Source of the DNA: a virus
DNA length: 34,721 bases
IMG/VR virus record: IMGVR_UViG_3300025109_000036
Span: 1 to 34,721 of that record
Strand: one strand, 5' to 3'
Shown here: positions 9,836-14,005 of the stretch, piece by piece
Numbering within the stretch: position 1 is the first letter of the stretch
How the letters are laid out: every line of letters starts with the position of its first letter
Translations under genes and position numbers: made by a program
Notes under the pieces: model-generated
Databases searched by the model: none
What the model was told of the DNA's origin: nothing
The model's input: only the letters and a program-made list of their open reading frames with translations

Positions 9836-11629
9836 TTAAATATTTATTCTAGCCTCGGCTATTTTTATATAATCTTCTTCTCTTTCTATTCCTATAAATT
9901 GTCTACCTGTATTCTTACAAGCTACACCTGTCGTTCCTGAACCCATAAATGGGTCTAGCACTATTCCACCAGTAGGAGTTTTAGTTAGTGTGCATAGGTA
10001 TTCCATTAGTTTAAGAGGTTTAACAGTGGGATGAGAATTTCGCATCAAATTATTCCTTTCATTCCCTGAACCAGTTTTTAATGTCTTGTCTTGTGTTACA
10101 GCCATACCACCACCTACCTTCTCCTCCAACCCCTCACACCCTGCGTTTCTTTCACTCTTTGAAGCCTTAGCTGTGTAGAAATACCTCTTCCATTCTTCAT
10201 CTTTTGCCACTTCCTCATCTAGTATTATATTAGCTGGGAATCTGCCTTGTGTTGTTGCGTTCTTAATCTCTTCTTTGACACATTCTGGGTCTGAATAAAT
10301 CTCTTTATCTGTAAATCTTAATACCTTATACCCACACTTTTTCATATAAGAATCTTGGCTTTTATCAAGTGCTTTCCTTTTTGGTTTACTGTGCCAATAT
10401 TCTCCATCCCATTGAATAACCAGTTTATCTTTAGGGATATACACATCTACTAAGAACTTCTTTTCTATTAAAGATTGTTCTTCAAACTCAACGCCAAGTT
10501 CTCTTAATATCTCACTACCTCGTTTTTCAAGATTATTTAATCCATTACTTTCTGCTTGCAAATAAGACACCCAAACGCCTTTACATTTCTCTGAACAAGT
10601 GCTTCTATCTCCTTGACTTTTCGGTGCTTCAAATTCATTCTCACAAATATTACAAATATGCTTATTGCGATTCTTTTGAAATTCCTGCCTACATTCTGCA
10701 TTGCAAAAATGATTTTTATACTTATCAAGAAAGCATTTCTTTACATACTTTTCCTTTCCACAACTATCACAGTTCTTGTAAGCTCCTTTTTGCTCTGGTT
10801 TAATCCGTGCTCCGTCAATGTTTAACCCAGCCACTTTGTGTTTAAGAGCATTGTTTGCATAAGTTCCGTCATTAGGTTTTTGGGCTACCAAAATTGGTTC
10901 ATAGGCTGGTTTAAGGCCGTGAGACTTCCAACCGTTCCATAGTTTGGCTTCGGGTGTTGATGGTTGAGTGATATCTTCTAAATCACCTACACTTGCATTC
11001 ATTTTTATATTAGAATTTTCACTATTTGCCCTTTGTTTTTTTTGGGCTATAATCTCCCTTTCTGCTTCTCCTCTTTTAATAAGTTCATCAAACCTGTCAT
11101 CCAAATCTAAAACTTCCTTTAGCTTTATATACATTCCCAAAGTAGGCAATTCATTGGTTTTTTTATCACCCATAACACAACTCGCAAATCCACCACCTGT
11201 TAAGGCACTCTCCATTAATTCATTAACTTTTTTTAGTGTATACACTTTTTCTTTGCGTTTCTCGTTACAATATTCTTTAAATCTTTCATCAAAATACCTC
11301 CCATTCCTCTTATCCAACTGTTTACTAATATCAGTAGCTTTCGGGAATCCTGAGCCATACAACCACATAATAGTATCTTTCAAAATAAACCCTGCGTCTT
11401 CTACATTACAAGCCATTCTGTGTTGTGTTCTACTACCTGCAAAGATCAATGCTGTGCCACCTGGTTTCAGTACCCTCAAACACTCTTGCCATATCTCTAT
11501 ACTAGGTACATCATCATCCCATTTCTTTCCCATGAACGATAATCCGTAAGGAGGATCTGTTATTACAGTATCAACCGAGTTATCTTCAAGCTCTTTAAGT
11601 TTTTCTAAACAATCGCCATGTATAATCAT
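9836..11629 (-). CDS. Beta-class DNA methyltransferase with an inserted nuclease domain
   Basis: The start at 11629 directly follows the TerL stop and gives 597 residues; a longer start would overlap TerL. Motif IV DPPY is at residues 25-28 and motif I DPFMGSGTT at about 559-567, preceded by HPTVKP. The order IV then I marks a beta-class N4-cytosine or N6-adenine methyltransferase, using S-adenosylmethionine. Between LNIDGARI (269-276) and QGRFPANIILD (461-471), which read as adjoining methylase segments, lie about 175 residues of zinc fingers plus a Vsr/DUF559-like nuclease. The enzyme may protect phage DNA from restriction, or pair methylation and cleavage in one chain. The specificity is unknown. 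Confidence 0.85.
   Translation of the reverse strand: MIIHGDCLEKLKELEDNSVDTVITDPPYGLSFMGKKWDDDVPSIEIWQECLRVLKPGGTALIFAGSRTQHRMACNVEDAGFILKDTIMWLYGSGFPKATDISKQLDKRNGRYFDERFKEYCNEKRKEKVYTLKKVNELMESALTGGGFASCVMGDKKTNELPTLGMYIKLKEVLDLDDRFDELIKRGEAEREIIAQKKQRANSENSNIKMNASVGDLEDITQPSTPEAKLWNGWKSHGLKPAYEPILVAQKPNDGTYANNALKHKVAGLNIDGARIKPEQKGAYKNCDSCGKEKYVKKCFLDKYKNHFCNAECRQEFQKNRNKHICNICENEFEAPKSQGDRSTCSEKCKGVWVSYLQAESNGLNNLEKRGSEILRELGVEFEEQSLIEKKFLVDVYIPKDKLVIQWDGEYWHSKPKRKALDKSQDSYMKKCGYKVLRFTDKEIYSDPECVKEEIKNATTQGRFPANIILDEEVAKDEEWKRYFYTAKASKSERNAGCEGLEEKVGGGMAVTQDKTLKTGSGNERNNLMRNSHPTVKPLKLMEYLCTLTKTPTGGIVLDPFMGSGTTGVACKNTGRQFIGIEREEDYIKIAEARINI
10262..10792 (-). mobile_element. In-frame zinc-finger plus Vsr/DUF559-like nuclease insertion in the methyltransferase
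   Basis: This covers residues about 280-456 of the methyltransferase. Zinc knuckles CDSC, CNAEC, CNIC and CSEKC occupy residues 287-349. They are followed by a PD-(D/E)XK-type fold of the DUF559/Vsr kind: E373, D395 in FLVDVYIP, then VIQWDGEYWH with D408 and H413, and D425 before the KKCGYKVLRF strand. These families include very-short-patch repair enzymes and EDxHD homing endonucleases. No intein ends flank it, so it is probably translated as part of the methylase. The boundaries are estimates. Confidence 0.65.
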
Positions 11630-11630
11630 T

Positions 11631-13862
11631 TTATGTAAATCTATTTTTAGCTTTTGTTCTTGTTTCTTCAAAGTAGTCCAACTGATCCCTGTTACCTGTC
11701 TCACTAGTAGCATTAAGCCTACTGCTTATCTGTGCAAACTGTCTGAATGCATCACTGTTACTAACCAACAACCCGTTTGCCAGATAACAATGGTGATGGC
11801 TTACGGTTATATCATATACAGGACACAAATTTCCCGTTGATAAGTTTACTACCCTTGCGTAATTTTGCTGATCGTTTCCCTGCTTCTCGTAGTTGCTTCT
11901 TGTTTGCTTCGCTTCCAACCCACTTATTCGTTTTTGCATGTAGTTTAGAATGGTTTGAAGCGGAAATACACGCAAGGTTTTCAACAACATTGTTACTCTT
12001 ATCGCCGTCCTTATGATGGATATGATAACCTTTCGGTATTTCTCCATTAACATCACTCCAAATAATCCTATGCAAGAAACTGTTTGTATACTTGCGACTA
12101 TAGTATCCATCTGATTCTCTTTTGTAATATTTTTTTCCTTTATATTCTTGGAACGGATGTTTACTAGGCACTTTTCTGTTTGAACCCTTCTTTCTTTTTC
12201 TCCAATTATCTTTTTGGAAATTCTCCCAATCCCCATCAATCGGATAAATCTCATCTTTTCTAGTAATTTCACCAACCCTATCTTCCCACAAAACTCTATG
12301 AAAAAGTTTTGTTTCCCCTCCTTTTTGCGACACGTAAAGTCTTCTTGTTTTCCAATAGTTATATCTTGTCCCTCCATATAAGATATAACACCCTTTCTTA
12401 TCCCCTCTTTTTGAAATTTTTTCACATTCCATATTGGTTTTGTTAGTGTATGAATACTATCATTATACACTAACTCATCTGCACATACAATACCTCTAGT
12501 CGTGAAAAACTTATGTTCAGGCGAAGTCTGTATTTCTGTACCATCTGTCAAACCAATCTTTATTGTTAAGGAGTCTTTTACATAACCTGAATGAGTAACC
12601 TCCCCATATACGCCATGAATATCTACTATGTCACCAACTAATATATCTTCTATGTTTTTATAACCATTTTTCATCTTAATTTGCGTGCCAGCAACCGTAC
12701 ACCCGTGTGATGCCCAGTCATGTTGTGGTGTGTCGGAAAAGATCTGCATCTTATCGTTCCATCGCTTCTTATAGCTCATTAGAGAGTTTAGTCCCTGGAA
12801 ACAATTGTCTTTATCAAACCAACATTTATGGAATATAGCCCTTGTTGCCTGTATACCATCAGCTAGGCTTGGAGTTCTAGGCACTATCTTGAATGTAATA
12901 CCCAACTTCTGTGCTGTCTCCCATCTAGTGACCCCTGTTGTTAGCTCTCGCACCTCTATATCGTGTGGAGCATAGTGACTGTCGTATATATAACCTTTCT
13001 GTTGACATATCTGTATGTAGTGTTGAAGACTCTCACCCTCGTTCTCATAGTAGTCTATGAATCTATACTCTTGTCCAACTATCTGCATGAACCATATTGT
13101 CATGCTATCGCTTATACCTAAGTCCCAGAATGTGTATACAGGTAAGTTAGCGTCATATGGTATTCTAGTTATCCTGCCACTATTTCTAGCCTTCTCTAGT
13201 TGGTTAGCATAGTAAGCTCCTTTTAACGAAGCCTCAAACGAACAATAGAACTCTTGGTTAAACTCATCTGCATCCATTACCTCTTGTGCATCTGCTAATT
13301 CTTCCTTATCAAGTATACCTGTGTCCTCAACTGTGAGTAGTGTAGAAAACCACTTATCATTAGTTTTTGCCTTGCTATATAGCTGGTAGAAGTCATTCAT
13401 TCCCTTCGGTGTTCCTATCCATATCCCATACCCCTTATTATCAGCCAACGCTGGTCTTATAATTTCAGTAAAGATGTTGCTTGGTTGTTGTGAGTACTCA
13501 TCAAATACCACACCCCACAAAGCAATTCCACGCAAACTGTCTGGATTGTCTGCTCCATATAATGTAATTCTCGCACCATTAGGAAAGTCTACTCTCAATT
13601 CACTCTCATTTGTCTTTACTCCAGGAATAACCATTGAATAGTGTTTCAAGTAGTCCCAAATTATTTGCTTTCCTTGGCGATATGTGGGACTTATGAACGC
13701 GTATCTACTATCCTTATTCTTACAAGCATCTCTTATTAAATGGTTTATAGCTGCAACGCTTTTCCCGCATCTTCTATGGGCAACTATAACATTCCATCTC
13801 TTGTCAGTATCATGAAGTGCCAAAGCCCATTCTCTCGGTGCATATGGTATTTCGTATTTCAT
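11631..13862 (-). CDS. Large terminase subunit interrupted by an intein
   Basis: With the ATG at 13862 this is 743 residues, of which 315 are intein, leaving a normal-size 428-residue terminase. The ATPase carries AHRRCGKS (Walker A, 28-35), VVFDEYS (Walker B, 118-124) and GTPKG (150-154). The nuclease domain begins near YTFWDLG. The intein lies between HDWASHG and SDAFRQ, that is, inside the conserved nuclease motif, so terminase activity needs splicing. The protein translocates DNA into the prohead and cuts it. An upstream in-frame start at 13913 would add 17 residues that overlap the RNA element; the MKYEIPYAPREW start resembles other terminases better. The intein also hosts an overlapping HNH gene. 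Confidence 0.9.
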   Translation of the reverse strand: MKYEIPYAPREWALALHDTDKRWNVIVAHRRCGKSVAAINHLIRDACKNKDSRYAFISPTYRQGKQIIWDYLKHYSMVIPGVKTNESELRVDFPNGARITLYGADNPDSLRGIALWGVVFDEYSQQPSNIFTEIIRPALADNKGYGIWIGTPKGMNDFYQLYSKAKTNDKWFSTLLTVEDTGILDKEELADAQEVMDADEFNQEFYCSFEASLKGAYYANQLEKARNSGRITRIPYDANLPVYTFWDLGISDSMTIWFMQIVGQEYRFIDYYENEGESLQHYIQICQQKGYIYDSHYAPHDIEVRELTTGVTRWETAQKLGITFKIVPRTPSLADGIQATRAIFHKCWFDKDNCFQGLNSLMSYKKRWNDKMQIFSDTPQHDWASHGCTVAGTQIKMKNGYKNIEDILVGDIVDIHGVYGEVTHSGYVKDSLTIKIGLTDGTEIQTSPEHKFFTTRGIVCADELVYNDSIHTLTKPIWNVKKFQKEGIRKGVISYMEGQDITIGKQEDFTCRKKEGKQNFFIEFCGKIGLVKLLEKMRFIRLMGIGRISKKIIGEKERRVQTEKCLVNIRSKNIKEKNITKENQMDTIVASIQTVSCIGLFGVMLMEKYRKVIISIIRTAIRVTMLLKTLRVFPLQTILNYMQKRISGLEAKQTRSNYEKQGNDQQNYARVVNLSTGNLCPVYDITVSHHHCYLANGLLVSNSDAFRQFAQISSRLNATSETGNRDQLDYFEETRTKAKNRFT
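11757..12701 (-). mobile_element. Intein in the terminase nuclease motif
   Basis: The intein is 315 residues. It begins with Cys (CTVAGTQIKMKNG, block A). It has a block-B-like TSPEHKFF. It ends with CPVYDITVSHHHCYLANG and LLVSN, followed by the extein Ser of SDAFRQ. The last residue is Asn as required; the penultimate residue is Ser instead of the usual His. The Hint splicing halves are the first 90 or so and the last 35 residues; the middle is covered by the HNH gene in another frame. Insertion at a conserved active-site motif is typical of inteins. Confidence 0.88.
11812..12432 (-). CDS. HNH homing endonuclease gene nested out of frame inside the intein
   Basis: This 206-residue ORF lies wholly within the intein sequence but in a different frame. 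The HNH core is HRIIWSDVNGEIPKGYHIHH followed by KDGDKSNNVVENL and SNHSKLH near residues 122-166. The N-terminal half carries a degenerate copy of the same unit (LFHRVLWEDRVGEI), so the protein looks like an internal duplication. Homing endonucleases of this class nick or cut the empty allele and copy themselves and their host element. The protein reading is far better in this frame than in the intein frame, whose middle part is Ile/Lys-rich and has no recognisable domain. No clear Shine-Dalgarno sequence precedes the ATG; expression could also come by frameshift. Confidence 0.75.
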   Translation of the reverse strand: MECEKISKRGDKKGCYILYGGTRYNYWKTRRLYVSQKGGETKLFHRVLWEDRVGEITRKDEIYPIDGDWENFQKDNWRKRKKGSNRKVPSKHPFQEYKGKKYYKRESDGYYSRKYTNSFLHRIIWSDVNGEIPKGYHIHHKDGDKSNNVVENLACISASNHSKLHAKTNKWVGSEANKKQLREAGKRSAKLRKGSKLINGKFVSCI

Positions 13863-13867
13863 AACTA

Positions 13868-14005
13868 TTATACTTTTAAACCCAGAGATACTTCCACCAT
13901 ATACATGATGCAAGCTTCAAGGAAACTAGTCTGTGTATTACGTGCAGATACATTTCCTAGTCTCCCTTCCACTTTAGAGACTATCTTAATGTAGTTAGAC
14001 GTCAA
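13868..14005 (-). other. Weak TTG ORF overlapping the RNA element (not called as a gene)
   Basis: Beginning with TTG at 14005, 45 codons run to a TAA two codons before the TerL ATG. The frame continues openly further upstream, and a second open frame reads on from the TerS stop to about 14003. Neither has an ATG, a ribosome-binding site or a recognisable product. The strong pairing pattern over the same bases suggests an RNA rather than a protein. Confidence 0.2.

Follow-up and report, generated by a model that had tools for sequence, protein, structure and literature searches.

Organization of the nested locus

A 34.7-kb virus contig from IMG/VR, whose full 34,721 nucleotides are referred to here as the window, carries on its minus strand an intein-interrupted terminase (TerL) ORF of 760 codons (11631..13913). 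A second ORF of 206 amino acids (12432..11812, minus strand) lies nested within it in the -1 frame. The features of the locus, all on the minus strand, are as follows.

12702..13862, minus strand: TerL N-extein, which starts at Met18 of ORF 11631..13913 and holds the ATPase together with the greater part of the nuclease domain (Terminase_6N 7e-14)
11757..12701, minus strand: intein of 315 residues, Cys1 to Asn315, with blocks A/B/F/G intact (Intein_splicing 2.6e-13 with the intein alone as query)
12438..12701, minus strand: Hint N-half with blocks A and B, Cys1 and T60xxH63 (AlphaFold pLDDT 94-98 over residues 1-80)
12430..12432, minus strand: predicted HNH start codon ATG, without a Shine-Dalgarno sequence
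11812..12432, minus strand: nested HNH ORF, 206 amino acids plus stop, in the -1 frame relative to TerL and the intein (HNH_3 1.5e-20, Pfam)
11947..12078, minus strand: catalytic HNH_3 domain, HIHHKDGDKSNN...H...H (Pfam residues 119-162)
11757..11861, minus strand: Hint C-half with blocks F and G, VYDITVSHHHCYLANGLLVSN (pLDDT 91-98 over residues 281-315)
11812..11814, minus strand: HNH stop TGA within intein block F, where the Tyr296 codon supplies its T (the third base) and the Asp297 codon its GA
11634..11756, minus strand: TerL C-extein of 41 residues, beginning SDAFRQF (88% identity in L081)

The Pfam Intein_splicing match is also obtained with the whole long ORF as query (4e-12), and the element combines blocks A, B, F and G with Cys1, TxxH, a C-terminal Asn and Ser at the +1 position. 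C1, G13 and H63 of the Hint N-half are invariant in our alignments A2 and A4, while the penultimate residue of the intein is Ser instead of the usual His. In the TerL nuclease domain the element is inserted ahead of the DAFR motif, and the reading frame is continuous through the element, as opposed to the N and C halves of a split intein, which occupy separate ORFs.

The TerL of the window shares 49% identity with that of Pelagibacter phage HTVC010P, which is intein-less. In a relative with 82% identity to the window TerL, L081, we found an intein-less allele with the uninterrupted site SHG/ADAFRQF, the slash marking the insertion point. This uninterrupted site fixes both intein ends and bears out the 315 residues given in the initial annotation, with Cys (12701) first and Asn (11757) last. 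The junction DNA reads GGA/GCTGATGCATTC in L081 and GGG/intein/AGTGATGCATTC in the window, and the sole amino-acid change between the two is Ala to Ser at +1, Ser being the kind of residue that inteins require at this position. No HNH match was detected within the 8 kb of L081 that were examined.

The nested ORF belongs to the HNH_3 homing-type family, both by its Pfam score (73 bits against a cutoff of 24.8) and by its conserved HNH residues. H139, H140, N148, N152 and H161 are invariant across 35 aligned relatives, and the window protein keeps 9/9 of the invariant family residues, the HNH motif included. Full-length relatives from L003-L007 align over 172-191 residues. On the other hand, the intein-frame translation of the overlap gave no nuclease match in Pfam. 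The element, therefore, would function as a mobile intein and yet is not canonical, as it lacks an endonuclease in its own frame. The HNH_3 match in the nested frame and the Terminase_6N and Intein_splicing matches in the long ORF agree with the proposal, made earlier from the letters of the DNA, of a complete HNH gene out of frame in an intein that stays open. We also observed that the N-terminal half of the HNH protein (12076-12432, minus strand) looks as if the C-terminal half had been duplicated and had since degenerated there (HRVLWEDRVGEI vs HRIIWSDVNGEI), a resemblance common to L003, L005, L006 and L007.

In the AlphaFold model of the intein, the two Hint halves (residues 1-80 and 281-315) reach pLDDT values above 90 while the overlap mostly remains at 40-60, so that the overlapped stretch is predicted to be unstructured. 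The HNH model has a mean pLDDT of 84.5, with 92-98 in the catalytic part. By profile, the nearest solved structure to the Hint domain is the gp41-1 intein (4.6e-19) and the nearest to the HNH protein is I-HmuI (1.5e-4; Foldseek gives a weak match, E 0.044, probability 0.99), a group I intron homing endonuclease that is encoded in an RNA intron and not in an intein frame.

Stop codons and selection in the two frames

In the other genes of the window genome, the same relative frame contains 0.077 stops per codon, corresponding to about 16 expected over 206 codons. The initial annotation had expected a stop about every 14 codons, which matches these genes but overstates the case for this locus: given the HNH protein, only 6.4 stops are expected by genome codon usage (P of zero = 0.0002) and 3.3 under a within-gene synonymous shuffle (P of zero = 0.006). 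Taken alone, the window locus is suggestive of more than chance; once its relatives are added, the evidence is overwhelming.

Across 42 distinct nested loci, a set partly chosen by its open frame, the intein frame contains 0 stops compared to 230 expected from synonymous codon choice at local G+C. Hint-flanked loci picked independently agree with this result, and among these stops were found only in the visibly split L050 and L051. Because the nested set is partly defined by the open frame, the main point is the control: 12 loci of the same family without an open contiguous host frame, both free-standing and split, presented 91 stops against 91.3 expected.

To describe which frame is constrained, we compared protein identity and substitutions. 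Over 1053 pairs of nested loci, which are non-independent and have a mean HNH identity of 0.40, identity in the intein overlap was 0.209, compared to 0.198 expected for an intein frame that is free except for stop avoidance. Five close pairs contain 23 substitutions, a small number of which one pair supplies most; these produce 8 amino-acid changes in the HNH frame vs 16.5 expected (P = 3e-4), and 17 in the intein frame vs 15.9 expected. Both tests indicate that the HNH is a conserved protein whereas the intein overlap is only kept open. The dual coding is thus asymmetric, with an overlap that is open in the intein frame yet lacks protein-level conservation. A conserved protein function for the overlapped intein stretch was considered and discarded, as there is no excess similarity and model confidence is low. 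The selection for dual coding proposed at the outset is sustained by the recurrence of the arrangement at about 50 loci, by the absence of stops, by the control and by purifying selection on the HNH, but on the intein side it reaches no further than an open frame.

Recurrence, probable mobility and predicted expression of the nested HNH

Scanning IMG/VR with the window HNH returned 69 loci, and almost all of these relatives that have a Hint match encode their HNH in frame -1 relative to that Hint. With later scans counted, about 50 distinct TerL-type inteins from IMG/VR and from named phages contain an HNH of the same family in this frame. At these loci no stop interrupts the host frame along the HNH or onward into Hint blocks F and G, and at most of them the TerL DAxRY motif follows as well. 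The same arrangement is present in the named phages TJE1, LS06-2018-MD07 and Highwayman, where the annotation gives a terminase only, and in bacterial assemblies; the first scan of genome contigs gave no match. We also looked for homologues whose HNH shares the intein frame, which would point to a frameshift in the window; none appeared at a TerL locus, only in other genes. Since about 50 loci share the arrangement, we reject chance, a local frameshift or a sequencing slip as its origin, and our results confirm a genuine feature that recurs among relatives and is subject to selection.

A single nested locus, L040:1981-4128, uses another frame, with the host in the HNH +2 frame, so that either the nesting arose independently or the frame changed. 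Stop load accounts for the preference for -1, as nested HNH genes mostly contain 9 to 38 stops in their +2 frame and far fewer in the +1 frame. In L030:1194-4703, a TerL ORF of 1170 codons presents two Intein_splicing matches and apparently contains two inteins.

L086 and L088 share 50-60% identity in their surroundings. Identity rises to about 90% over the 800 nt leading up to the HNH start, which include nearby TerL and show a dip to 65% within Hint N, and it reaches 96-100% across the HNH as far as the 3' junction, with 97-100% for the HNH itself. To judge from the alignment, this pattern fits a recent transfer with co-conversion of the flanks. Other states of the same family were also found. 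Free-standing HNH genes occur right after an intact terL in L003, L041, L049 and L057, and beside it in BP10 and FBPa53. In L034, L050 and L054 the HNH gene lies between separate N and C ORFs of apparently split TerL inteins, making these loci candidates for new natural split inteins. In L014:1926-2462 the HNH frame contains an internal stop while the intein frame is still open, and the endonuclease has probably decayed there. Free-standing, nested, split and decayed forms may be stages of a cycle in which the element is gained, decays and splits; the HNH tree is poorly resolved, with nested and free labels intermingled, and neither orders these stages nor separates one origin from several.

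Just downstream of terL, the window contains a DNA methyltransferase gene (9836-11713, minus strand) with an in-frame insert of about 180 residues carrying zinc-type motifs. The insert also contains a nuclease of DUF559/Vsr-like type (6.7e-12 in Pfam; 'homing endonuclease' in PHROG). No Hint was seen in it, and the methyltransferase gene is missing between terL and portal in L081.

The median distance from the previous HNH-frame stop to the HNH start is 12 nt. A Shine-Dalgarno-like tetramer precedes 18/48 of these starts compared to 16/143 control ATGs (P = 1e-4), while canonical slippery heptamers near the junction are present at 8/48 loci. From the start spacing, the Shine-Dalgarno enrichment and the rarity of slippery heptamers, internal initiation is our best inference for how the HNH would be made. 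The missing Shine-Dalgarno sequence at the window start is uninformative, as such a tetramer is absent at the expected place in 15/15 other genes checked in the record, which suggests that the host initiates without one. At the other end, the Val-Tyr-Asp codons of block F contain the end of the HNH gene: TAT GAY gives TGA in the -1 frame, and Tyr-Asn gives TAA. This device is common to many relatives, and because the Tyr-Asp or Tyr-Asn codons of block F supply the stop, the splicing motif itself terminates the HNH gene.

Based on these observations, we consider it very probable that the element is a mobile intein whose homing endonuclease is encoded out of frame as a separate protein. One mRNA would then have two readings. 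Frame 0 would yield TerL straight through the element, and the Hint halves would fold together, excise the 315-residue intein and join both TerL parts, while the approximately 190 residues between the Hint halves would link them passively and without structure. Initiation at the ATG at 12432 would, in frame -1, give a separate HNH_3 endonuclease that ends at the TGA of block F. When phages co-infect, this endonuclease may cut intein-less terL at the codons of the conserved nuclease motif; repair templated by the intein copy would then spread the whole element together with flanking DNA.

The nested HNH might instead be a relic in the window phage, once active and now unexpressed or inactive, so that only the intein works. 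The window protein lacks the C-terminal, zinc-type CxxC motifs present in most relatives, for which reason this copy could be weak, and L014 illustrates that decay of the HNH under an open intein does occur. We regard a relic as unlikely, given that all nine invariant family residues are retained and that the ORF is full length, stop-free and provided with a start, aligning with L003-L007 over most of its length. Less probable still is a role other than homing, in which the HNH would assist the terminase in packaging as a cofactor, an idea favoured by the free-standing members beside intact terL and by phage HNH proteins encoded next to terminase genes, which are reported as packaging components in a paper as cited in PMC10448857. 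The only solved relative of the family that we found is the homing endonuclease I-HmuI, the near relative L081 has an intein-less TerL and no HNH match in its examined 8 kb, and the transfer with flanks seen between L086 and L088 resembles homing.

The occurrence of the HNH in the -1 frame at all nested loci but one could also reflect its fusion to the Hint N-half through programmed -1 frameshifting. The lower stop load of the HNH +1 frame already accounts for that frame, and the infrequency of slippery heptamers, none of which was seen near the HNH start in the window sequence, together with the Shine-Dalgarno enrichment and start codons just past in-frame stops, renders such a fusion very unlikely. 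A group I intron, whose ORFs are commonly out of frame with the exons, or a sequencing frameshift is hardly credible as the cause: no Rfam family, and thus no group I catalytic RNA core, matched positions 11500-13000 at E up to 1, the intein frame is open and codes for the Hint blocks, and an assembly error is excluded by the same frame at about 50 distinct loci.

Relation to known inteins and significance

The closest published precedent is the ShiLan insertion, an out-of-frame HNH in a phage DNA methylase, whose patchy distribution its authors took as homing (Arsenault, Gosselin, Gogarten 2025, PMC11855218). As in the window, the HNH ORF is out of frame and the insertion is open in the frame of the host gene. 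However, no intein splicing domain was found in the ShiLan insert, which is thought to stay in the methylase, whereas the window element has intact Hint halves and resides in a terminase; the HNH start is GTG in ShiLan and ATG in the window. The same paper cites Gorbalenya 1998 for frequent overlapping frames and a 2025 preprint on non-canonical actinophage inteins (PMC11855218), and that preprint may already describe an intein with an out-of-frame HNH. The initial annotation knew of no description of the arrangement; its novelty is therefore uncertain, the published precedent being without an intein domain.

Canonical HNH inteins with an HNH_3-type core between Hint halves occur in the wider family, in the dCTP deaminase of Aphanizomenon phage CL131 (L076) and in ribonucleotide reductases (L068, L103); for the CL131 intein there is experimental proof of excision (PMC6293099). 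These are single proteins in the intein frame, as opposed to the separate -1 frame protein of the window. L103:9-3773 is a ribonucleotide reductase from a Nitrososphaerales archaeon assembly, its intein carrying an in-frame HNH of the HHKDGD type. The SPbeta bnrdE intein was considered as an early example and set aside, being an ordinary in-frame LAGLIDADG intein with its other frames closed.

Fractured genes with split inteins were reportedly described by Dassa and colleagues in 2009. Among solved structures the window Hint is closest to gp41-1, and L034, L050 and L054 have an HNH between the halves; in split inteins, however, the halves are separate, while the window intein is contiguous and overlapped by the HNH. 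TerL inteins are reported to be common in phages, and those of mycobacteriophages are likewise in TerL but in the ATPase domain (Kelley et al. 2016, PMC5050341), as opposed to the nuclease motif before DAxRY used by the window type.

Free-standing HNH genes next to terL, the nested inteins, and split inteins that have the HNH between their halves can be placed in one series. An endonuclease that has become independent of the intein frame would allow that frame to acquire stops, and the halves could then separate. We tentatively suggest, as a possibility we rate somewhat below even, an undescribed class of inteins, widespread and located in the terminase nuclease motif, in which the homing endonuclease is an independent gene in the -1 frame and nesting is a possible route to natural split inteins. 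In the standard description, an intein and its endonuclease are produced fused to each other (PMC3943268). With two activities as separate proteins from one DNA, the amount of nuclease could be tuned without regard to the host protein, and its decay would leave the intein unbroken provided no stop arises. Annotation pipelines overlook the HNH, as the three named phages with a terminase annotation only illustrate. For work on overlapping genes the family is a clean natural case in which free-standing relatives act as controls, and it offers a route to split inteins that can be tested.
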